From: Candidatus Omnitrophota bacterium
GTDB taxonomy: Bacteria; Omnitrophota; Koll11; JAHIPI01
DNA length: 10,919 nucleotides
Direction of reading: 5' to 3'
Assembly (NCBI GenBank): GCA_028718265.1
Contig: JAQUMG010000046.1
Location: 1 to 10,919 of the forward strand
Positions within the stretch are counted from its first letter, which is position 1. Each line of letters starts with the position of its first letter. Positions 2-10,919 of this stretch are shown here, piece by piece. The translations under genes and the position numbers were made by a program. The notes below the pieces were generated by a model. That model was given only the letters and a program-made list of their open reading frames with translations. It was not told the DNA's origin and did no database searches.

Positions 2-3000
2 TTCTCAAATTACGGGTTCGGTATTAACGTATCTGCCCCGGGAGGCGGCTTTAAAGGAGAACTGCCGGACGCTTACGGGATGTATAACATACTTTCTACT
101 ATGCCGGATAATTCGGAAATAGCCGATTCAAGGCCCCAGCTTCAGGTTTCGTCGGGTTACTGGCGGATCGCAGGTACTTCAATGGCTTGCCCGCATGTAG
201 CCGGAGTAGCGGCCCTTATAAAAAGCCGGTACCCCGATGCTCAACCCGACGAAATACGCGGCAGGATTATGGCAGGAGCGGACAATATAGACTCACTCAA
301 TCCTGATTTTAAGAACTGTCTCGGAGCGGGGAGAATAAATGCCTATCAATCTCTCATCACAGAACCTGCCCCGCTTATAAGGCTGACAGAGATAAAATAT
401 GATGAGATGACTTTAACTAAAACAGGCAATATCAAAGTTTATTTAAAAAGTTTCTGGGGAAAGGCAATTAACGTCGAGGCTGTATTATCAACGTATGACC
501 CGCGGGTTACTTTAAATCAATCAAGCGCGAACTTTGGTGACATCAACGCCGACGAAACAAAGTCAAATTCCCTTAGCCCGTTTAACATATCTATCAGTCC
601 TGGTTTCCCTGCCGGAGAAGCTATAGATTTGCAGCTTACCATTACCGCCGGAGGCGGCTATGAAAAAACCTACGATTTTGCCATACCTGTCACTTACTTC
701 GCGGCTGTTAAAAATACCCGGCTGCCACTGGAAGATTCGTTTACGACATGCTTAAGCACGGGAGATTACGATAATGACGGTTATACGGATGTCATAGTCA
801 CGGGTATGAGTGATGACGAGGCAAGATTTTACAGAAATAACCATGACGGATCCTTTGTTCAGGTCAACGATGATACAGGGGTGCATTGCGAGGCCCGCGC
901 CATAACATCCCTGTTTTTTGACCTCAATAATGACGGCTTTCAGGATATACTTGTAGGCCAGGTTGTTAACAGTCTGGGGACCGAAGATCCGGCCGACGAT
1001 ATTATAGGATACACCAAATTATTCCTTAATAACGGGAACGGGATGTTTACCGACATATCTCTATCGAGCGGTATAAGCGATTTTACACATTGTAGAAGCG
1101 CTATAGCTCTTGATTATAATAACGACTCTTTTACGGATATTTTATTGGGTTCTCAGGACGATTCTCAGTCGATAGCCCTCATGAGAAATAACGGCAACGG
1201 GACTTTCTCTAATGTGACAAATGGAGCAGGTATCAGTAAGATTCCACATACATACCCGAATCTGGTAGCTTTCGACTATGACAATGACGGTGACCAGGAT
1301 TTGTTTGTAACAGGCGAGTTTAATCTTGATAACAGGCACTACCTTTACAGAAATAACGGCGACGGCACATTTACGGATTGCGCGGCAGCAGCCGGGATAG
1401 ACATTGCAAGAGGCGGCGCTTTCGGTGCCGCGGCAGGCGACTATAACAATGACGGATTCATAGACTTATATGTGGCAGGCCTTATGACCTCCCCTTCATA
1501 TGGTGTCAGGCCGTCGAAATACGACGCCTTGTACATGAATAACGGCGACGGTACATTTACAGACGTTTCGGAGCAGGCCGGCGACCCGGGCACTACGCAG
1601 GAAGGCATGCATTACGGCAACGACTTTTTCGACTTTGATAACGACGGCTATCTTGATCTTTATATAGCCGAAGGCGGATTGAGCCCCGAGAAAAATGCGT
1701 TATTCAGGAATAACCGGGACGGCACCTTTACGGCGATAACCGATAAGGCGTTTTACGCTTTTGTCAGGCCGGCATTCGGAGCCAGCGTCATATTCGATTA
1801 CAATAATGACGGAGCAATGGACGTATATGCGCTATCCAGCACATTTTTTTCAGCCGGGGGAGACGGGGCATTTTTCGAGAACATGACGGGCACGAAAAAT
1901 AACTGGATTAAAATAAAGCTTGAAGGCAGCGTAAGCGCGCGCGACGCCCACGGCGCGAAAATATATGTAACGGCAGGCGGCCGCACCCAGCTTAGGGAAG
2001 TGCATAGCTCGCCCGTCCAGACACAGCCGGTCAATTTCGGGTTAGGGAATGAGACGTTTATAAATGAGATAGAAGTCTGTTGGCCGAGCGGCCTTACGCA
2101 GAAGGTAACCGGTGTCGCTGCTAATCAGATTATAGTAATATCCGAAGCGGCGACAGAAGGTCCCTTTATTTATACGGTTATACCGAATGCGGTTTATGCA
2201 GGCGATACTGTTACTATTACCGGCCGGAACTTCGGCGCATTTAGCGGTACGGCCTGTGTCAAATTCGGTAATAATGCCGGGGTAGAGGTTATAAGCTGGT
2301 CCGATACGGAAATTACATGCAAGATTCCGGTTGACGCGGTAAGCGATGTCATACGCGTAATAACAGAGACCGGAGCAAGCAATAAAGTGCGCGTTGCCGT
2401 CAAAATAGGGAATCCCCCTGTGAATCTTACCGGCAACATTGTATATCCTTACAAAATAGCGCTCACATGGCAGGACAACTGTCAGGGTGAAGACGGATTC
2501 ATAATAGAGCGCGGCGAAGAATCCGGCGGCCCGTTTACGCAAGTAGGCACGTCTTCATACAACAACCCCCGCTACATCGACACTGGTGTTATAGAGGGCA
2601 GGACATACTACTACAGGGTATGTGCCTATAACAGCGCGGGTAATTCGGGATATTCAAACATAGCCATGATAACGCCGGGTATGATCCTTATAACTGCCCC
2701 GGAAAATTTAAGGATCTCATCATCCGGAGGAATATCCGCTCTTTATATTGCCTGGACCGACTGCTCAAATAATGAGGACGGCTTCATAGTAGAACGCAGT
2801 GAATCTCCGGATAGCGGATTTGCGCAGATAGCGGTAGTTTCCTCTGCCAATGTCACTTATGCAGACTACCGTGTTGCCATCGGCATAACATATTATTACA
2901 GAGTCTGTGCATATAACGATGTGGGCAATTCGGCATATTCGAATGTATTGGAGGCCAAGCTTACCATGCCTGCGCCGTCAAATTTGAAAGCGCAGGCCGT

Positions 3001-5032
3001 ATCGCCGACGCAGATAAATCTCTCATGGATGGATCATTCGACTAGTGAGGAAGGATTCATAATAGAGCGAAGCGAAAGTCCAGACACAGGATTTGCAGTT
3101 GTCGCAACGCTTCCCGCCGACACCATTACTTATAATGATGCAGAAGTTTCCGGTACCACGGCGCACTATTACAGAATATGTGCGTACGACAGCACAGGCA
3201 ATTCAGCATATTCCAACATAGCGAAAAGTACAGTCTTTATATGTGCCCCGACCGATCTGGCAGGTGAGGCTGTATCATCAACTAAGATACGTCTTACGTG
3301 GAAAGATAATTCCGATAATGAAACCTATTTCATGATATACCGAAAATATGCTACCGACCCTCACTACGAACATACAAATTCGGCAAATAGGAACGCGACA
3401 ACATACCTTAGCGAATATCTTAAGCCAAGTACCACATATTATTATGTGGTGCGTGCATTTAATAACTCTGGATATTCGGAGTTTTCGAACGAAATATCCG
3501 TTACCACTCTTGCCAATTCGCCTCCGGTCTTGGATCCGATCGACAACAAAATTGTAAATGAAGGACAACCCTTGCAGTTTACTATTTCAGGCACAGACGT
3601 CGATGGCGATTACTTAACATACTCAACATCAGCTCCTCCTGCTGACGGGATGGTATTCAAGGGGAAGACAGGGGCATACTCATGGACACCCACACCTTTT
3701 CAGGCCGGAGAGTATGCTATGACGTTTACGGTATCGGATGGCCAGCTTAGCGATTCCGAGACTATATCTATAAACGTCCTGGACACAATAGATGAAGTCG
3801 CACCCGGCGAATCCATACAGGATGCGGTAAATAATGCCGCGGCAGGAGATACTTTATACATCGGCGGTGGAACATACGAAGGCGATATAAACGTGCAGAA
3901 TAAAAATATAACCATAAGAGGCATAAGCGTTTTTGACACTACCATAAAAGGCAACATCTCGTCGTGTAATTCCAATTCATCCATAGAGGACCTAACCATT
4001 ATTTATAAACAAGGAAGTACCATCACTTACTCAAACGAGTATTACACAGACTTTAAGCTTGCAGCAGACGCCGGCATTACCGCAGTCAATTCAGACATAA
4101 CTGTCAGAAACTGCACCATCATGCCTGATTTCGACATATTTGGTATAGATAAATTCGGCAAAGGAATCCAGATATGGAACTTATACGGTAATCCCGACAT
4201 AGCGCCTCTAATCGAGAATTGCGAGATTTTAAATGCCGATGCAGGCATATATCTCTATTCCCAGGTTTTTGGCGGGGCCATCCTCGGCGAAATAAAGAAT
4301 AACCAATTGGAGAATAATAACTGCAGCATAGTTATGAGAATGCACAAGGAAAAACCGCTTATTCAGGATAACGCAATCTCCTACTCAATGAACGGTATCC
4401 ACATAACCTACGAAGACGATGCGCTACTAGAGGAACGGCTCAGTAATATCATCACTAACACCTTCCACAGCAATACCTGTGACATATGGTGTGATGAGAC
4501 CGGCGTCATTGCGAAGAGTTACAATAACCTTATAAGAAACAGCGGCTTTGAGGAATCATTCTGGCCGCCTGCCTTCTGGTCTGAATGGAGCGGGGCAGCA
4601 GGGTCGCCGGAAGACGGCGGCGCCTATGGATATATATATGATATGGTAAGTCATTCAGGCCGGTATTGCGTTGTGCGCGGCTTGTATGGCACAACTATCC
4701 GTTGGGGTGGGTTCAGCCAGGATGTAGCCGTAAATCCGGGAGACTTTGTAATGATGAACGGCTGGCTGATGAGCCCCGAATCCAAACCGCTTTCCAATGG
4801 GGCGGAGGCGCATATAGAACTTGTTTTCCTTTCGGCGGACGGGACAGAACTTATAAAACATCAAAGCGCCCAATTGACAAGTGGAAGCGGCTGGGTGCGG
4901 CGCTCCATTACACAGACAGCACCTGCAGGAACTACAACTGCGCGCATAAATTTCGTTCTTGTAGGTACAAATGACAGTTCATCGGGAGAAGTATATTTTG
5001 ATGATGCTTTTTTAAGTGCCGCAAGCCAGTGA
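2..5032 (+). CDS. Giant multidomain subtilisin-family (S8) serine protease, 5' end missing
   Basis: Probably a secreted subtilase. The frame is open from base 2 and already reads subtilase sequence (SNYG...SAPGG, residues 2-15 of the visible part), so the ATG at 80 is internal and the real start, signal peptide, pro-region and the catalytic Asp and His lie upstream. GTSMACPHVAG carries the nucleophile Ser60. Domains in order (visible residue numbers): S8 C-terminal part 1-118; beta-sandwich about 119-234; seven FG-GAP/VCBS repeats about 235-630; ASPIC/UnbV 634-718 (RDAHGAK, FGLG, WPSG); IPT/TIG 720-802; four fibronectin III domains 803-1170; He_PIG/cadherin-like 1171-1262; pectin-lyase-fold beta-helix about 1263-1508 (starts PGESIQDAVNNAAAGDTLYI); C-terminal jelly-roll-like domain 1509-1676 (begins NLIRNSGFEE). 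No sortase motif or membrane anchor is seen at the C terminus. The protease call is firm; the roles of the accessory domains in adhesion or glycan binding are inferred. No clear intrinsic terminator follows. Confidence 0.93.
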   Translation, partial: FSNYGFGINVSAPGGGFKGELPDAYGMYNILSTMPDNSEIADSRPQLQVSSGYWRIAGTSMACPHVAGVAALIKSRYPDAQPDEIRGRIMAGADNIDSLNPDFKNCLGAGRINAYQSLITEPAPLIRLTEIKYDEMTLTKTGNIKVYLKSFWGKAINVEAVLSTYDPRVTLNQSSANFGDINADETKSNSLSPFNISISPGFPAGEAIDLQLTITAGGGYEKTYDFAIPVTYFAAVKNTRLPLEDSFTTCLSTGDYDNDGYTDVIVTGMSDDEARFYRNNHDGSFVQVNDDTGVHCEARAITSLFFDLNNDGFQDILVGQVVNSLGTEDPADDIIGYTKLFLNNGNGMFTDISLSSGISDFTHCRSAIALDYNNDSFTDILLGSQDDSQSIALMRNNGNGTFSNVTNGAGISKIPHTYPNLVAFDYDNDGDQDLFVTGEFNLDNRHYLYRNNGDGTFTDCAAAAGIDIARGGAFGAAAGDYNNDGFIDLYVAGLMTSPSYGVRPSKYDALYMNNGDGTFTDVSEQAGDPGTTQEGMHYGNDFFDFDNDGYLDLYIAEGGLSPEKNALFRNNRDGTFTAITDKAFYAFVRPAFGASVIFDYNNDGAMDVYALSSTFFSAGGDGAFFENMTGTKNNWIKIKLEGSVSARDAHGAKIYVTAGGRTQLREVHSSPVQTQPVNFGLGNETFINEIEVCWPSGLTQKVTGVAANQIIVISEAATEGPFIYTVIPNAVYAGDTVTITGRNFGAFSGTACVKFGNNAGVEVISWSDTEITCKIPVDAVSDVIRVITETGASNKVRVAVKIGNPPVNLTGNIVYPYKIALTWQDNCQGEDGFIIERGEESGGPFTQVGTSSYNNPRYIDTGVIEGRTYYYRVCAYNSAGNSGYSNIAMITPGMILITAPENLRISSSGGISALYIAWTDCSNNEDGFIVERSESPDSGFAQIAVVSSANVTYADYRVAIGITYYYRVCAYNDVGNSAYSNVLEAKLTMPAPSNLKAQAVSPTQINLSWMDHSTSEEGFIIERSESPDTGFAVVATLPADTITYNDAEVSGTTAHYYRICAYDSTGNSAYSNIAKSTVFICAPTDLAGEAVSSTKIRLTWKDNSDNETYFMIYRKYATDPHYEHTNSANRNATTYLSEYLKPSTTYYYVVRAFNNSGYSEFSNEISVTTLANSPPVLDPIDNKIVNEGQPLQFTISGTDVDGDYLTYSTSAPPADGMVFKGKTGAYSWTPTPFQAGEYAMTFTVSDGQLSDSETISINVLDTIDEVAPGESIQDAVNNAAAGDTLYIGGGTYEGDINVQNKNITIRGISVFDTTIKGNISSCNSNSSIEDLTIIYKQGSTITYSNEYYTDFKLAADAGITAVNSDITVRNCTIMPDFDIFGIDKFGKGIQIWNLYGNPDIAPLIENCEILNADAGIYLYSQVFGGAILGEIKNNQLENNNCSIVMRMHKEKPLIQDNAISYSMNGIHITYEDDALLEERLSNIITNTFHSNTCDIWCDETGVIAKSYNNLIRNSGFEESFWPPAFWSEWSGAAGSPEDGGAYGYIYDMVSHSGRYCVVRGLYGTTIRWGGFSQDVAVNPGDFVMMNGWLMSPESKPLSNGAEAHIELVFLSADGTELIKHQSAQLTSGSGWVRRSITQTAPAGTTTARINFVLVGTNDSSSGEVYFDDAFLSAASQ
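704..1900 (+). repeat. Seven FG-GAP/VCBS repeats, predicted seven-bladed beta-propeller
   Basis: Seven calcium-loop motifs of the D-x-(D/N)-x-D-G-x-x-D type lie in one frame, with first Asp codons at 764, 920, 1112, 1274, 1439, 1631 and 1796, that is every 52 to 64 residues. Most are followed by an NN-x-(D/N)-G-(T/S/M)-F turn typical of the family. Seven such repeats make a complete integrin-alpha-like propeller, and the UnbV domain directly after them is the usual partner in CRTAC1/ASPIC proteins. The third motif is altered (DYNNDSFTD, Ser in place of Gly). Calcium binding and a ligand-binding role are inferred from the family. Confidence 0.88.
2408..3512 (+). repeat. Four tandem fibronectin type III domains
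   Basis: Four copies of about 91 to 95 residues each carry the FnIII signature: a Pro-x-Asn/Asp-Leu start, a W-x-D core (LTWQD, IAWTD, LSWMD, LTWKD) and a Y-Y-x-(V/I)-x-A-(Y/F)-(N/D) strand. The equivalent Tyr/His codon that opens the last strand is at 2606, 2891, 3164 and 3437, a spacing of 285, 273 and 273 bases. Copies 2 and 3 share the run ERSESPD, so they look like the most recent duplicates, while copy 4 is more divergent. Such repeats are common spacers in bacterial extracellular enzymes. Confidence 0.9.
3786..4525 (+). other. Right-handed parallel beta-helix (pectin-lyase fold) segment of the protease protein
   Basis: The region opens with the characteristic first-coil sequence of secreted beta-helix proteins (PGESIQDAVNNAAAGDTLYI, then GTYEGDINVQNKNITIRG). 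Short strand/turn coils rich in Asn and Ile follow, such as IENCEILNADAGIYLYS, GEIKNNQLENNN and IQDNAISYSMNGIHI. This matches DUF1565/NosD-like and pectate-lyase-like folds. I cannot identify a lyase or hydrolase active site, so it may be a binding or structural module rather than a second enzyme. Confidence 0.75.
4526..5029 (+). other. C-terminal jelly-roll carbohydrate-binding-like domain of the protease protein
   Basis: The segment begins NLIRNSGFEE and then continues with Trp/Phe-rich beta-strand sequence. The start is the form seen in CBM4/9/16-type and related beta-jelly-roll modules (N-L-(I/V)-x-N-G-x-F-E-x-x-x-x-x-W). It ends with GEVYFDDAFLSAAS, and a V-Y-F-D-D-(V/A)-x-L strand is the usual final strand of these modules. 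Sugar binding is inferred from fold resemblance only. Confidence 0.65.
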
Positions 5033-5064
5033 TCCATAAATCCCCGCCGCTTAGATATCAACAT

Positions 5065-5106
5065 AAAGGAGTGTTAATGATAAAAAAGATAGTTTTTGTC
5101 TATTGA
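5065..5106 (+). other. Nine-codon mini-ORF (MIKKIVFVY) behind a strong Shine-Dalgarno sequence
   Basis: AAAGGAG at 5065-5071 lies five bases before ATG 5077, the best ribosome binding site in the window. It serves a frame of only nine codons, MIKKIVFVY, ending at TGA 5104-5106. The peptide resembles the first residues of a signal peptide (compare MKKIIFAAA of the gene at 5772). After the stop the same frame reads ten more mostly hydrophobic or basic codons to TAA 5137. It could be the stump of a decayed secreted-protein gene, a leader peptide, or chance. I do not claim a product. Confidence 0.35.
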
Positions 5107-5131
5107 TATATGCTAATTTTTAAGGTATATT
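5103..5131 (+). promoter_or_regulatory. Predicted sigma70-type promoter for the PilZ gene
   Basis: A -35 box TTGATA at 5103-5108 and a -10 box TATATT at 5126-5131 each match the consensus in five of six positions and are separated by exactly 17 bases. Transcription would begin near 5138 and give a leader of about 113 nt before the PilZ ATG. The -35 box overlaps the stop codon of the nine-codon mini-ORF. Confidence 0.6.
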
Positions 5132-5182
5132 TAAAGTAAAGAAAGAAGAAACGCTAAGTTAACAAAATTTTTCAACGATAAA

Positions 5183-5211
5183 GGCAAAACCGCTTTTTGG
5201 GTGGTTGTGCC
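5183..5211 (+). promoter_or_regulatory. Leader hairpin upstream of the PilZ gene, faintly GEMM-like
   Basis: The arms at 5183-5193 (GGCAAAACCGC) and 5201-5211 (GTGGTTGTGCC) pair over 11 positions with one A.G mismatch and one G.U pair, closing a seven-base loop TTTTTGG. It has no U-tract after it, so it is not a terminator. The left side (ATAAAGGCAAA, then CC...GG, then GCC) recalls the first half of the c-di-GMP-I (GEMM) riboswitch. However, the conserved GACGCAAA strand and the second helix are absent, so I call only a structured leader. Confidence 0.45.
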
Positions 5212-5250
5212 GGCGGCGTGGAGGTTTGATTTTAGAAAGGACGAAGTAAA

Positions 5251-5679
5251 ATGAGCGCTAACCATATAGAACATCAGAGGGTTACGGCGTTTTTGACAAA
5301 GAGAGCGCTTGAAACATACGCGGCGCAGCCGGACAGGCGAAAATACCCGCGCATAGATAAGAATTTAATAATAGTATTCAGAAAAATGGATTCTATGGAG
5401 CAATGTGATACCGCCGTTACGGACGATATGGGCATGGGCGGGTTCAGGATTAAGGCAGCGTTTCTCGGAAATCCTTTATCGGCAAATGACATTATAGAGG
5501 TAATCATTAAAGACCCACGAAATAACATTAAACCGGTAATAGCGATAGGACGCGTTGCATGGATAAAAGAAAAAAGCTATGATAACTACGAAATAGGAGT
5601 AATGCTTACCAACATAGCGCGAAAATACAGAAAGAAATTTATAAAATACCTGAAGGCGCAGATAGACTTGAAGTACTAA
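5251..5679 (+). CDS. Small PilZ-domain protein, probable c-di-GMP receptor
   Basis: A 142-residue cytoplasmic protein made of a short N-terminal helical stretch (about 1-28) and one PilZ domain (about 29-140). PilZ domains bind the second messenger c-di-GMP through an RxxxR motif and a (D/N)xSxxG motif. Here R30-KYP-R34 gives the first. The second reads D59-M-G-M-G-G64, with Gly where Ser is usual. The C-terminal half (GRVAWI...NYEIGVML) is typical of the domain. There is no output domain, so it likely acts by binding a partner protein. The start is supported by AAAGGA at 5236-5241, nine bases upstream. It has its own promoter (5103-5131) and a terminator-like hairpin just after the stop, so it is likely monocistronic. 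Family confident; partner and process unknown. Confidence 0.87.
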   Translation: MSANHIEHQRVTAFLTKRALETYAAQPDRRKYPRIDKNLIIVFRKMDSMEQCDTAVTDDMGMGGFRIKAAFLGNPLSANDIIEVIIKDPRNNIKPVIAIGRVAWIKEKSYDNYEIGVMLTNIARKYRKKFIKYLKAQIDLKY

Positions 5680-5680
5680 A

Positions 5681-5731
5681 CCGGATCCGTATTATATTCT
5701 CTGAATAAAGAGAATTTTTTATCCGGCCTTT
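5681..5731 (+). terminator. Nested terminator-like hairpin after the PilZ gene
   Basis: The inner hairpin pairs ATTCTCT (5696-5702) with AGAGAAT (5709-5715) around GAATAA and runs into six T (5715-5720). An outer inverted repeat CCGGAT (5681-5686) / ATCCGG (5721-5726) encloses it and is followed by CC and TTTTT (5727-5733 region). Either stem plus T-run would work as a Rho-independent terminator. It starts one base after the PilZ stop codon. The 45 bases between it and the next ATG hold a ribosome binding site and only a weak TATAAA (-10-like) at 5743-5748 without a good -35. Confidence 0.65.
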
Positions 5732-5771
5732 TTAACTGCTTATATAAAGTTTATTCGAAGGACAAGGCAAT

Positions 5772-8700
5772 ATGAAAAAGATAATATTCGCGGCAGCCGT
5801 ATTTGCCATATTAATTGCACCCGCTTATTCGTTTGCTTATGCAATGAGGATAAACTGCGGCGGCACGGCTTATACTGCCGTAAACGGGGATTTTTATATT
5901 GCAGATCGGGAATACACGCAGGCTAACGGCGCAGGATATACCGGCGGCAGCGCGGGAAGCGCGGCGCCGAACGCCGTGGAAAACACACAGGACGATTCTC
6001 TTTATCTTACGGATAGATACGGGAGTTTTGATTATAAATTCGATCTCGCAAATGGTTATTACAATGTAACTCTGCGATTTGCGGAGACGTATTTTCCTGC
6101 CCCAGGCTTCAGAAAATTCCGCATCTTCCTCGAAAATAATCTCGTTTATGATAATTTCGATCCATGCACCGGCGGGTGGTACCGTGCTGTTGACCTAAAT
6201 TTTATTGTCAAGGTAGAGGACGGGCAACTTAACATTACCTTTGGTGCCATACAAGACCTGCCTAAACTATGCGCAGTTTCCGTCGCAAATATTCCAAAAC
6301 CTCAAAGCACGGGACCGGTCCGCATTTCCGGCAGAAACATACTTCTAAACGGTGAAAAATTTATAATAAAAGGCGCAGGATACCAGCCTGTGCCGGTGGG
6401 CTATGACGTAAACGAATACGATGTTTATAACACCCCCGGCATCTACAACCGCGATCTGCCGCTCCTGCGCGCGATGAATTGCAATGTAATAAGAACATGG
6501 GGCAAAGTGAACAGCATGGCGTTTCTTGACGCATGCTGGAACGGCGGCACCGACCCTATATATGTTGTCATGGGTTTTCATCCGTGGAACGAAGCCAATA
6601 TAGATCCTAATGACCCGAATAATACACGTCAGGATATAATAAATGAGTTTAAAGATTATGTAAATACTTACAAGAACCACCCTGCGGTTTTAATGTGGGC
6701 TGTCGGCAACGAAAACAACTACTGGCAAGCCGCGCCGTGGAATCCTTCCATGACACATGAAGAATTAATGCGCTGTTGGTACAGCCTTGTGAATGACCTG
6801 GCTCTTGCGGCATACGACGCAGAGGGTGTGTCATATCATCCTGTAACACATCCTAACGGTGCCGTCTATGACGCATCCGGGCCGATAGGAAGTACGCTGT
6901 ATAAAACCGACGACGCTTCTATGCCGTATCTTGACGTCTGGGGCGCTAACGTATATACAGCGTGGAGTCTTGACGATAGCATCACCAATTATCAGGCCGC
7001 CAGTTCAAAACCGTTCTGGATATCAGAATACGGATTCAGGGGTGATAATCAAAGATATCAGGCAGAAGGCGCAGATATCCTGTGGGAAGAGATACTTGAA
7101 CATTACGATACGTGCTCCGGTTCGTCTATCATGGCATACAGCGATGAGTGGTGGAAATATAATGATCCGGCGTGGACCTCTGACGAAAAACGCATTCATC
7201 TCGGCATCCACGATATATGGCTTTATAACGAGGAATTCTGGGGGTTGGTCGGTGTGGAAGGTAAGGACATGCAGTCCGATAATGTCTACCCGAAGCTCGT
7301 TTATTACCGGCTTAAAGAACAGTGGGCACCGGACAATGAAAAAAGTAACCTCGCTTTTAATAAACCCGCGAGCGCGTCTTCGGTGGAACCCTCCAGCGGA
7401 TATACACCGGATAAAGCCGTAGACGGAAATATTAATACGAGATGGTCTTCCGAAGCATCGGACATACAGTGGCTTTGTGTGGATCTTGGTGGTGTACATA
7501 GTATAGGCCGCGTAGTTATACGCTGGGAAAATGCATACGCGGCAGCCTATGAAATACAGGTATCAAATGATGCCGCAAACTGGACTACGGTGTATTCAAC
7601 CTCAAGCGGTGCGCCTTATACTAATTTCATATATTTGGACGGCATCGCTGCCCGCGGCAGGTACATAAGGTTGTACTGTACTCAACGCGCGACGTCCCGG
7701 GGCTATTCTTTATATGAATTTAAGGTATTTGAACCAATAGCGGAAAACGCCGCTATAGGCAAGACAGCCTTCACTTCAGTTGTAGAAAATAATGATCCTC
7801 AACTCGCCGGAGCTAAAGCCATAGACGGAAATTTTGCCACAAGATGGTCATCAGGAATTACGAATCCCGAAACACCGCTTGATGCCCCTTACGAACAGTG
7901 GATATATGTCGACCTCGGTGCGTATTATGATATAAGTCAGGTCGTTTTGCGGTGGGAGCAGGCATATGCCCATGAATACAAGATACAGAAATCCTATGAC
8001 GGTAATAACTGGACGGATATTCATACGGAGACGAACGGCAACGGGACGGACGATTATATTAATTTTTCGCCTTCGGTTCAATCGCGATATATAAGACTTT
8101 ATTGTATAAAAAGAGGGGCTCCTTACGGCTATTCATTGTGGGAATTTCAAATAAACGGGATTATAAGTTTGCCGCCGGACGAACCATGCCAGATAGGGGC
8201 CTTTATCGCTGATTGGGCGAAAGAAGCGACTTTCCCGTGGAACGGCAATGAGGGTATTACGAAATTTGAAGATGTAATACAGAGAGAAGTTGCCTGCGTA
8301 AAGTTATACCATAAGATTACCGACGATTTTCCTTTCCGCGATTGCCTTACTATATATAATCATGGCACGCATCATGCAGTTCCTTTTATAGACATACATC
8401 CCAGCACAAGTGATGCCGATACTGCGCCGCATCTGCTTGAAATAATTAACGGCGTATTTGATGATGAGATACATAACTGGGCCCGACAGGCGCGGGCGTT
8501 CGGGAAACCTCTATGGATATCATTTGACGGCGAGATGAACGGAGATTGGCATAGCGGCTCCGGCGCGGCAAACGGCGGAAGTACTCTTGACGGCTACGGT
8601 GATCCGGCTAAAGCCGATGGTCCTGAAATATACATAGATGCATGGCGGCATATCCATGATATCTTTGATGCCGAAGGGGTCGATAATGTGGCCTGGGTAT

Positions 8701-10919
8701 GGAGCGTGTACGCGTATGACTGGCCTCAGGATAGCTGGAACCATTTCGAAAATTACTATCCCGGCGACGCATATGTTGACTGGCTAAGCGTCCACGGGTA
8801 TAACTGGAATCGCGCCGAGCTCGGTGGATGGCAGTCCTTCCAGACTATATTTAACGATGCCTTAGGCAGGATACACATGATTAACAGTGAAAAGCCGGTA
8901 ATGATAGGCGAATTCGGGTGCGCTGACGGAGAGCCGGGGCAAAAGAGCACATGGATAACAGATGCCTTTAATCTCATTAAGACGACGTACGATTATATTA
9001 AATGCGCAGTTTGGTTTGACATGAATAAGGAAGAAAACTGGCTAATCGATTCCGACGGAAATGTTGCCCCGCGCACAGCTCTGTCAGACCCTTATTTTAC
9101 TTCCAGCGGTGATCCCGGCACTGCTTACATAAAGTCATTCATTCCTCCCTATGAAAAAAGATTCAACTGCGGCGGCTCTTCTTACACTGCCGTAAACGGA
9201 GATTATTATGCGGCTGACCAGACGTATACGTCTGAAAACGGGGCTGGTGTCATCGGCGCGTCATCCCCGGTCTCTACCACCATAACGATTGACGGAACCA
9301 CAGACGATCCGCTGTATCAGACAGCGCGGCAAGGAGGCAACTTCCAGTATAAATTTGACGTTCCAAATGGCCGATACGAGGTAAAACTTCAATTCGCAGA
9401 AATTGTCCATGGCGAGCCGCCATCGCGGTCATTTTTGGTTTTGATTAACGATGCGGTCGTAAAGGGACATCTCTCTACTATCTATGGCGCCGCCGGAGGT
9501 ATGTATAAAGCCTACGACCTCGAATTTTTTACGAACGTAACTAACGGCCAATTAATAGTTGAATTCCGCGCGGCCCCCGGGAATCCCGAATGGGATGTGA
9601 CCGGCATAATAAACGCTATTTCAGTAGTTACCTCCAAGCCGGCGAGCGAAGGTTCAGTAAAGGTTTCAGGCCGGCAAATATTACTTAGCGATCAGCCATT
9701 TACTATAAAAGGCACCTGCTATCAACCGATACCGATAGGCTCTGGTATAAACGAATACAACTTCTACACCGACTCTGATATTTATAACCGCGATTTCCAG
9801 ATATTGCGCGATATGAAGTGTAATGCCGTCCGCACATGGGGGAAAGTGGGTTATTATGACGAACACGGCTCGTTTTTACCCGCTGCAGGTTTTATGGATG
9901 CTGCCTATAATGAAGGCATAAATCCGATTTATGTAATAATGGGATTTCATGTGGATGGCTCGCTGAATCTTGCGGATCCCGCTATCCGGCAGAATGTAAT
10001 AGATGAATTTAAACTTTATGTTCATCTGTACAGGAACCACCCTGCAGTTTTAATGTGGGCCGTTGGCAACGAAAATAATTATTGGTATCCGGGAGATAAG
10101 AAAGACTGGTATAGTCTGGTCGATGAATTGGCATGGGCCGCATACGAAGTAGAAGGTAAGTCATACCATCCCGTTACTACGCCCAACGGCGATATATGGA
10201 ATAGCACCGGGCCCATTGGCAACCGTGATTTCAAAACCAACGATAATTCTATGCCGTATCTTGACGTCTGGGGTGCCAATATCTATTCGGGGTGGAGTTT
10301 TCAGAACAGGATACAGACTTATGCCGGCCTGAGTTCAAAACCTTTCTGGATATCGGAATACGGTTTTCCCGGCACAGACGAACGCAATCAGGCGGAAGGA
10401 GCGCGTGTATTGTGGGAGGAAATGGCGCGTAATTCAAATATATGCTCCGGCGGCACCATAATGGAATACTCCGATGAATGGTGGAAATCAGGCACGCCCG
10501 ACAGACACAATGACTCGGACGGAGTAGAATTTTTCGGCGTAGTATCTGCGGAAGATAACGGCAGCGCGGCAGATATCATGCATCCGAAGCCGGCTTATTA
10601 TGTGCTTCAGGAAGCGTGGGGCGAAACTGCGGGCAAGAATATAGCTTTTGGTAAAAATGCTTATGTTTCCTCCGTAGAAGAAGGAAGCGGCCATATTGCC
10701 GCTAACGTGATTGACAGAAATTTTACTACGAGATGGTCATCCGTTGCTTCCGATCCGCAGTGGATATACATAGACCTCGGCGAAACTCATGCCATAGGCT
10801 CGGTTGCCTTATGGTGGGAAGCAGCATATGCCGCTGCTTACGAAATACAGGTTTCCGACAACGCGTCAGATTGGACTACGGTAGATTCCGTATCCGGCGG
10901 AGACGGGTATAACGATTTT
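5772..10919 (+). CDS. Giant secreted multi-catalytic glycoside hydrolase with duplicated malectin-GH-F5/8C blocks and a GH26 domain, 3' end missing
   Basis: The frame stays open from ATG 5772 to the window end (1,716 codons, no stop). GAAGGA at 5757-5762, nine bases upstream, supports the start. Residues 1-24 form a Sec signal peptide (KK, hydrophobic core, A-Y-A cleavage site). Domains: malectin/CBM57 26-175; clan GH-A TIM barrel about 181-522 with acid/base E314 in MWAVGNE and nucleophile E419 in WISEYG; F5/8C (discoidin, CBM32-like) 526-654 and 659-796; GH26 807-1112 with acid/base E921 in DGEMNG and nucleophile E1047 in MIGEFG; malectin 1130-1287; second GH-A barrel 1294-1618 with E1434 and E1529 in the same motifs; third F5/8C 1623 to the edge. 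All six predicted catalytic Glu are present, so three active sites are likely. GH26 members cut beta-mannans, beta-1,3-xylans or mixed-linkage glucans. The GH-A barrels resemble GH2/GH5/GH72 proteins, but I cannot assign a family or substrate. Confidence 0.92.
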   Translation, partial: MKKIIFAAAVFAILIAPAYSFAYAMRINCGGTAYTAVNGDFYIADREYTQANGAGYTGGSAGSAAPNAVENTQDDSLYLTDRYGSFDYKFDLANGYYNVTLRFAETYFPAPGFRKFRIFLENNLVYDNFDPCTGGWYRAVDLNFIVKVEDGQLNITFGAIQDLPKLCAVSVANIPKPQSTGPVRISGRNILLNGEKFIIKGAGYQPVPVGYDVNEYDVYNTPGIYNRDLPLLRAMNCNVIRTWGKVNSMAFLDACWNGGTDPIYVVMGFHPWNEANIDPNDPNNTRQDIINEFKDYVNTYKNHPAVLMWAVGNENNYWQAAPWNPSMTHEELMRCWYSLVNDLALAAYDAEGVSYHPVTHPNGAVYDASGPIGSTLYKTDDASMPYLDVWGANVYTAWSLDDSITNYQAASSKPFWISEYGFRGDNQRYQAEGADILWEEILEHYDTCSGSSIMAYSDEWWKYNDPAWTSDEKRIHLGIHDIWLYNEEFWGLVGVEGKDMQSDNVYPKLVYYRLKEQWAPDNEKSNLAFNKPASASSVEPSSGYTPDKAVDGNINTRWSSEASDIQWLCVDLGGVHSIGRVVIRWENAYAAAYEIQVSNDAANWTTVYSTSSGAPYTNFIYLDGIAARGRYIRLYCTQRATSRGYSLYEFKVFEPIAENAAIGKTAFTSVVENNDPQLAGAKAIDGNFATRWSSGITNPETPLDAPYEQWIYVDLGAYYDISQVVLRWEQAYAHEYKIQKSYDGNNWTDIHTETNGNGTDDYINFSPSVQSRYIRLYCIKRGAPYGYSLWEFQINGIISLPPDEPCQIGAFIADWAKEATFPWNGNEGITKFEDVIQREVACVKLYHKITDDFPFRDCLTIYNHGTHHAVPFIDIHPSTSDADTAPHLLEIINGVFDDEIHNWARQARAFGKPLWISFDGEMNGDWHSGSGAANGGSTLDGYGDPAKADGPEIYIDAWRHIHDIFDAEGVDNVAWVWSVYAYDWPQDSWNHFENYYPGDAYVDWLSVHGYNWNRAELGGWQSFQTIFNDALGRIHMINSEKPVMIGEFGCADGEPGQKSTWITDAFNLIKTTYDYIKCAVWFDMNKEENWLIDSDGNVAPRTALSDPYFTSSGDPGTAYIKSFIPPYEKRFNCGGSSYTAVNGDYYAADQTYTSENGAGVIGASSPVSTTITIDGTTDDPLYQTARQGGNFQYKFDVPNGRYEVKLQFAEIVHGEPPSRSFLVLINDAVVKGHLSTIYGAAGGMYKAYDLEFFTNVTNGQLIVEFRAAPGNPEWDVTGIINAISVVTSKPASEGSVKVSGRQILLSDQPFTIKGTCYQPIPIGSGINEYNFYTDSDIYNRDFQILRDMKCNAVRTWGKVGYYDEHGSFLPAAGFMDAAYNEGINPIYVIMGFHVDGSLNLADPAIRQNVIDEFKLYVHLYRNHPAVLMWAVGNENNYWYPGDKKDWYSLVDELAWAAYEVEGKSYHPVTTPNGDIWNSTGPIGNRDFKTNDNSMPYLDVWGANIYSGWSFQNRIQTYAGLSSKPFWISEYGFPGTDERNQAEGARVLWEEMARNSNICSGGTIMEYSDEWWKSGTPDRHNDSDGVEFFGVVSAEDNGSAADIMHPKPAYYVLQEAWGETAGKNIAFGKNAYVSSVEEGSGHIAANVIDRNFTTRWSSVASDPQWIYIDLGETHAIGSVALWWEAAYAAAYEIQVSDNASDWTTVDSVSGGDGYNDF
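5847..7733 (+). repeat. Intragenic duplication, copy A (malectin, GH-A barrel, F5/8C)
   Basis: This block matches the block at 9159-10919 in domain order and in many runs of residues: NCGG-x-x-YTAVNGD-(F/Y)-Y, NHPAVLMWAVGNENNYW, MPYLDVWGAN, SSKPFWISEYGF and AYAAAYEIQVS. At DNA level 6917-6943 is identical to 10247-10273 (27 bases), while most other shared codons differ at third positions. The copies are therefore old but still recognisable. Confidence 0.9.
7347..8159 (+). repeat. Tandem pair of F5/8 type C (discoidin, CBM32-like) domains
   Basis: Two adjacent domains (residues 526-654 and 659-796) each show the family pattern: N-x-A-x-x-K at the start, A-(V/I)-D-G-N-x-x-T-R-W-S-S, Q-W-(L/I)-x-V-D-L-G, a Y-x-I-Q-x-S-x-D/N strand, and R-Y-I-R-L-Y-C near the end followed by G-Y-S-L-(Y/W)-E-F. 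They probably bind sugars of the target polysaccharide. The domain at 10638-10919 is a third member, and by shared residues it is closest to the first of this pair. Confidence 0.87.
8190..9105 (+). other. GH26-type catalytic domain between the two duplicated blocks
   Basis: Codons for residues 807-1112 encode a clan GH-A barrel with GH26 hallmarks: an N-terminal G-A-F-x-A-D-W strand, the acid/base motif F-D-G-E-M-N-G-x-W (E921), V-A-W-V-W-S, a D-x-Y-V-D-W-L-S-V-H-G-Y-N-W strand, the nucleophile motif M-I-G-E-F-G (E1047), and a late W-F-D-M-N-K-E-E-N-W-L-I-D-S strand. The residue before the acid/base Glu is Gly, where many beta-mannanases have His, so the substrate may not be mannan. Confidence 0.82.
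9159..10919 (+). repeat. Intragenic duplication, copy B (malectin, GH-A barrel, F5/8C cut by window end)
   Basis: This is the second copy of the malectin/GH-A/F5-8C block, offset from copy A by about 3.3 kb (NCGG motifs 3,312 bases apart, acid/base Glu codons 3,360 bases apart). The two catalytic Glu lie 95 residues apart here and 105 in copy A, so loops near the active site differ. The F5/8C domain is truncated by the window edge after about 94 residues. Confidence 0.9.

Follow-up and report, generated by a model that had tools for sequence, protein, structure and literature searches.

A single reading frame on a short contig of Candidatus Omnitrophota bacterium encodes three glycoside hydrolase (GH) barrels interleaved with malectin and F5/8C modules, which raises the questions of what polymer such a chain might act on and how it was put together. 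The frame occupies positions 5772-10919 of the forward strand of contig JAQUMG010000046.1 (assembly GCA_028718265.1), whose 10,919 nucleotides are the window analysed here. We propose, with a probability of about 0.6, that its product is a secreted multi-catalytic beta-glucanase. Two paralogous, presumably retaining barrels would cut (or transfer) beta-1,3-linked glucan, a divergent lichenase-kind GH26 barrel would cut mixed-linkage or related beta-glucan, and malectin modules together with carbohydrate-binding modules of family 32 (CBM32) would tether the chain to its substrate and thereby keep the cuts near one another. Its mosaic ancestry shows that the chain itself was assembled through whole-module exchange.

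No stop codon interrupts the frame over its 1,716 codons, and its 3' end is the contig edge. Across 200 mononucleotide-shuffled copies, open runs in this frame peaked at 91 codons on average and never exceeded 180, which bears out the run of at least 1,716 codons claimed in an earlier, sequence-only reading of this DNA; the remaining five frames of the stretch contain 41 to 133 stops each. Pfam detected malectin in two stretches, F5/8C in three, Glyco_hydro_72 in two and Glyco_hydro_2_C in two, in agreement with the two malectin and three F5/8C modules previously noted. All NCBIfam matches of the enzyme lay under their curated cut-offs, and a PADLOC scan returned weak partial matches only. With exact borders set by hand, the modules are arranged in the following order:

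5772..5840, + strand: signal peptide, residues 1-23 (judged by eye from the sequence, without a predictor)
5841..6287, + strand: malectin domain 1, residues 24-172 (Pfam PF11721, best stretch 24-161; tree)
6303..7343, + strand: first paired barrel, GH157/GH158/GH72-like, clan GH-A, residues 178-524
7344..7736, + strand: F5/8C (CBM32) domain 1, residues 525-655 (Pfam; PDB 2rva/4zz5)
7737..8189, + strand: F5/8C (CBM32) domain 2, residues 656-806 (Pfam)
8193..9116, + strand: GH26 barrel, residues 808-1115, nearest to lichenase CtLic26A
9129..9647, + strand: malectin domain 2, residues 1120-1292, sister of the malectin of relative P0002 (Pfam; tree support 100/100)
9663..10676, + strand: second paired barrel, residues 1298-1635 (54% identity to the first; same conserved residues)
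10689..10919, + strand: F5/8C (CBM32) domain 3, residues 1640-1716, cut by the contig edge (Pfam; sequence)

The third F5/8C module is thus incomplete, and further C-terminal domains, among them a predicted beta-helix, may lie beyond the sequenced end. By-eye judgement supports the claim that one signal peptide precedes all modules, and the product is probably secreted. Between the two malectin-barrel-F5/8C units, identity is 48% across 613 alignment columns. The earlier description of "two GH-A and one GH26" barrels was right about the three barrels and wrong in its contrast, GH26 being itself a clan GH-A family.

To place this layout among relatives, we used three protein searches limited to proteins inside a set length range (the best 120 of 157, 120 of 142 and 120 of 865 matches), which listed 358 distinct proteins besides the window's own. 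Among these, by blastp at 1e-5, GH26 occurred with CBM32 in 11, two or more paired-type barrels in nine, and both barrel types together only in P0002; none had the three-barrel set or the whole layout, in line with the earlier reading, which knew of no described enzyme with this order. No paper describing the architecture was found, judged by titles and abstract starts. A scan of genome contigs gave two weak loci (27% and 28%), in Auribacterota and UBP3 records. In a 44-genome phylum set, eight genomes had a match at E ≤ 1e-30, each spanning one or two modules, and none spanning the whole chain; no search was aimed at Omnitrophota genomes.

The chain might instead be an assembly chimera of two genes: its sole source is one 10.9 kb contig, and the junction of GH26 to malectin 2 is found in no relative among the matches listed. 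Exact direct repeats in the window, however, are no longer than 27 bases, and GC content (0.44-0.50 per module) and third-position GC content (0.42-0.52) are similar throughout. Moreover, the order of the first five module types (malectin-barrel-CBM32-CBM32-GH26) recurs in P0002, an uncharacterised metagenome protein of 1,782 residues encoded on a different contig, and each of these five is 62-71% identical to a module of the window. An assembly error behind the chain is therefore unlikely, and a two-gene chimera in particular is highly improbable. Unlike the window enzyme, P0002 lacks a second malectin-barrel unit and ends in CBM32-PKD-CBM32-beta-helix, and its malectin pairs with malectin 2 of the window.

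All three barrels have both catalytic Glu (E314/E419, E921/E1047 and E1434/E1529), as previously claimed. Those of the paired barrels are:

6711..6713, + strand: Glu314, predicted acid/base (GNEN) of the first barrel, aligned to BuGH158 E137 (hand count)
7026..7028, + strand: Glu419, predicted nucleophile (SEYG) of the first barrel, aligned to the LaGH157 E224A site and BuGH158 E220
10071..10073, + strand: Glu1434, predicted acid/base of the second barrel (alignment)
10356..10358, + strand: Glu1529, predicted nucleophile of the second barrel (alignment)

BuGH158 residue numbers were counted by hand, and the LaGH157 residue matching Glu419 is the one that appears as Ala in the E224A chain. Across 139 sampled barrels of this family, the Glu314 column holds E in 132 and the Glu419 column in 135, and both residues are kept in 132. 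The seven barrels lacking one or both occur in P0040 (both its barrels), P0082, P0103, P0108, P0189 and P0236; such barrels may be non-catalytic copies. In the predicted structure of the first barrel the catalytic Glu sit at strands 4 and 7, and Glu921 and Glu1047 do so in the model of the GH26 barrel. Placement of the Glu outside the barrel active sites, which would have told against the sequence-only reading, was thus not seen in the two barrels modelled.

By profile and structure, the families nearest to the paired barrels are GH157, GH158 and GH72, all beta-1,3-glucan enzymes, with GH2 close behind. The best match by both approaches is LaGH157 (PDB 9fz9, 9g4n and 9g5g), whose nucleophile aligns and which shares a W-W-K motif after strand 8, although identity is only 19-22%, a single-sequence search at E 0.001 misses it, and its 537-residue PDB chain holds one barrel rather than three. 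GH158 (BuGH158 and GH158(Pro)) and GH72 (Gas2 and Gel4) are likewise clan GH-A barrels of beta-1,3-glucan; the GH158 catalytic pair aligns with that of the first barrel, but scores are lower than for GH157 and the alignments end before the W-W-K motif. The Pfam GH72 model (PF03198) passes its gathering score (76.5 versus 25.9 bits), with a best stretch covering only model positions 8-145 of 314, and the GH2 barrel model (PF02836) is likewise over its gathering score. GH2 enzymes carry sugar-binding and Ig-like domains ahead of the barrel. No Pfam match to such N-terminal domains was found in the enzyme at E ≤ 0.01, and malectin precedes the barrel instead. The paired barrels probably represent an uncharacterised clan GH-A family close to the families of beta-1,3-glucan enzymes. 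These results point to a large barrel family in which we found no characterised member.

Since the paired barrels are paralogues at 54% identity, similar chemistry is likelier than action on two different neighbouring linkages, contrary to what the sequence-only reading had suggested. That chemistry could also be transfer rather than digestion, with the barrels acting as Gas/Gel-like GH72 transglycosylases that remodel beta-1,3-glucan of the cell's own matrix or of a host. Of the 36 members aligned for the barrel, 31 match Pfam GH72, and the structure matches of the first barrel, lists from which a missing family is not thereby excluded, include Gas2 and Gel4 (GH72). Nevertheless, GH157 and GH158, which are endo-hydrolases where tested, outscore GH72, and a lichenase-like GH26 barrel with at least three CBM32s in the same chain fits digestion. 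Remodelling is therefore an unlikely function.

Tandem pairs of family barrels were also observed in seven proteins (P0003 and P0121-P0126, two of them named Omnitrophota), with a divergent first barrel (37-40%) and a second closer (47-63%) to those of the window. The barrel genes at one distant locus (L001) have a GntR/LacI-type regulator and metabolic genes as neighbours, a setting uninformative on substrate.

The predicted catalytic residues of the third barrel are:

8532..8534, + strand: Glu921, predicted acid/base of GH26, aligned to CtLic26A chain position 109 (hand count)
8910..8912, + strand: Glu1047, predicted nucleophile of GH26 (model strand 236-243)

In the GH26 alignment E occupies the Glu921 column in 121 of 123 rows, the Glu1047 column in 122 and both in 120. 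The Pfam GH26 model (PF02156) gave no match in the window enzyme at E ≤ 0.01, though P0002, P0004 and P0240 do match it; a phmmer search against the PDB matched the stretch to CtLic26A at 4.3e-35. Residues 808-1115 belong to GH26, being related in both sequence and fold to characterised enzymes of that family.

The sequence-only reading had cast this barrel as a backbone cutter of mannan or xylan within a machine for a branched polysaccharide, the other barrels working on neighbouring linkages. Many GH26 enzymes are mannanases, and some sources call relatives of this barrel beta-mannanase. The model, however, is nearest to lichenase CtLic26A, about 10 Z units ahead of mannanases and xylanases. 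According to a comparison of GH26 mannanases (PMC6556568), Arg197, His200 and Phe207 of the -1 subsite (BoMan26B numbering) are conserved; in our alignment Ser917, Gly920 and His927 replace them. As the other two barrels are, in addition, paralogues of one family, a mannan- or xylan-type substrate is doubtful, and more so than remodelling by the paired barrels. The same three positions also set the window barrel apart from Clostridium thermocellum CtLic26A, in which they are Arg105, His108 and Tyr115 (hand-counted). Gly for His combined with loss of the Arg recurs in 19 of the 123 GH26 rows, the window's included, which points to a GH26 clade with an altered -1 subsite.

The binding modules bear on whether a beta-glucan is the target. 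Malectin (PF11721, CBM57) scored 153.8 bits against a gathering score of 23 over its two stretches, and F5/8C (PF00754) was found at E 3.8e-58 in three stretches, with kinship to CBM32. Among the matches listed, this CBM32 type occurs together with PF17652, which we take to be GH81, in 26 of 120, and with GH3 and other families too. CBM30 modules bind beta-glucans, and CBM30 (PF21582) is annotated, among the matches listed, in six barrel carriers (P0096, P0167, P0168, P0209, P0227 and P0233) and in P0004. The closest solved structures to CBM32 domain 1 are those of a Paenibacillus glucanase/chitosanase module (PDB 2rva and 4zz5, E about 7e-32), and such modules are reported as chitosan binders (PMC5651945).

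The target might instead be a different beta-linked polymer, for example an exopolysaccharide bearing glucosamine or uronate, to which these chitosan-type modules and the changed GH26 subsite would be adapted; GH2 beta-glucuronidases are also structurally close to the first barrel. The co-occurrence of the same CBM32 type with PF17652 argues against this, as does the profile of the barrel family, nearest to GH157 and GH158. We regard such a target as improbable, and a beta-glucan as the probable substrate.

How the chain was assembled is indicated by P0002. Its malectin shares 71% identity with malectin 2 of the window and 44% with malectin 1, whereas its barrel is closer to the first window barrel (62%, against 49% for the second), and trees supported both groupings at 100/100 (the malectin tree without P0109, a long branch; the barrel tree with 22 chosen rows of 139). 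Approximately unbiased (AU) tests rejected four alternative groupings: the P0002 barrel plus the second barrel (p = 6e-6), the two window barrels as a pair (p = 2e-6), the P0002 malectin plus malectin 1 (p = 2.4e-5) and the window malectins as a pair (p = 1.8e-4). These p-values are optimistic because the test groups were named after a first quick tree. The conflicting trees and these rejections indicate that the two units did not arise by simple recent tandem duplication and that modules have been exchanged. The breakpoint lies near the malectin-barrel linker, in the window's line or in that of P0002.

A malectin-barrel-CBM32 protein, P0127, hints at the route. Its malectin is closer to malectin 1 (52% versus 43% for malectin 2) and its barrel to the second barrel (62% versus 54% for the first), although in the barrel tree it groups weakly with the first (84/73) and in the malectin tree it has no firm placement. 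One route that would fit is that a P0127-like gene received a barrel-CBM32-CBM32-GH26-malectin block between its malectin and its barrel. The module following GH26 is CBM32 in P0002, P0004 and P0240 and malectin 2 in the window. This mosaic ancestry illustrates how long multi-enzyme chains of uncultured bacteria are assembled from exchangeable parts.

The surroundings of the enzyme gene include an upstream open reading frame (ORF, 2-5032) encoding the end of an S8 peptidase domain, FG-GAP repeats, ASPIC, TIG and fn3 (Pfam), followed by two further modules, and a small ORF:

3785..4546, + strand: beta-helix module near the end of the upstream gene (phmmer, E 1e-5)
4547..5029, + strand: C-terminal module of the upstream gene (blastp, at least 11 rows, ahead of the barrel in relatives)
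5251-5679, + strand: PilZ-domain ORF between the two long genes, same strand (Pfam)

At phmmer E 1e-5 the beta-helix was found in six relatives (P0002, P0004, P0065, P0096, P0209 and P0233; 42-54% identity), all of which carry one of the enzyme's barrel types and have the beta-helix near their C-terminus. These relatives were picked by likeness to the window enzyme, so the count covers beta-helix carriers within these families. The common beta-helix is possibly a targeting or binding module. The upstream C-terminal module precedes the barrel in P0065, P0142 and P0145, among others. A fuller and more tentative picture would combine a so far unnamed clan GH-A family, found widely across uncultured phyla, with a GH26 clade of new specificity in a natural tri-catalytic enzyme for one beta-glucan-like polymer. 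Recombination at the linker between malectin and barrel would have produced it, and the common beta-helix, as targeting module, would tie it to the peptidase-like protein encoded upstream.

In an Auribacterota-set genome (G043; L017:6381-8690 and 8704-14605), an ORF with the upstream-type C-terminal module, three CBM32 and a malectin directly precedes two RHS-repeat ORFs. PilZ domains form a family that binds cyclic di-GMP (c-di-GMP). A candidate c-di-GMP riboswitch upstream of the PilZ gene (about 5150-5256, with a hairpin at 5182-5212), suggested by by-eye likeness, was rejected: the window had no Rfam gathering match, no such family appeared at E ≤ 5 in 5000-5900, the candidate fold was ordinary (z = −0.66) and degenerate patterns were absent from the 44 genomes and viral contigs. 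Within 4900-5900, the numbers of promoter-like sites (4 versus 3.1) and terminator-like sites (2 versus 1.1) were close to those of shuffled sequence.

Chains of this general kind are already known. According to PMC12265866, Thermococcus MDG (GH5-GH12-GH12-CBM2-CBM2) has three catalytic domains per chain, as the window enzyme does, but its families and binding modules differ. PbGH26A-GH5A (PDB 6d2w) likewise joins a GH26 to another barrel in a multi-GH chain, with otherwise different families and binding modules. Relative to these systems, what appears to be new is the mix of families, the uncharacterised barrel family, the altered GH26 subsite and the exchange of modules.
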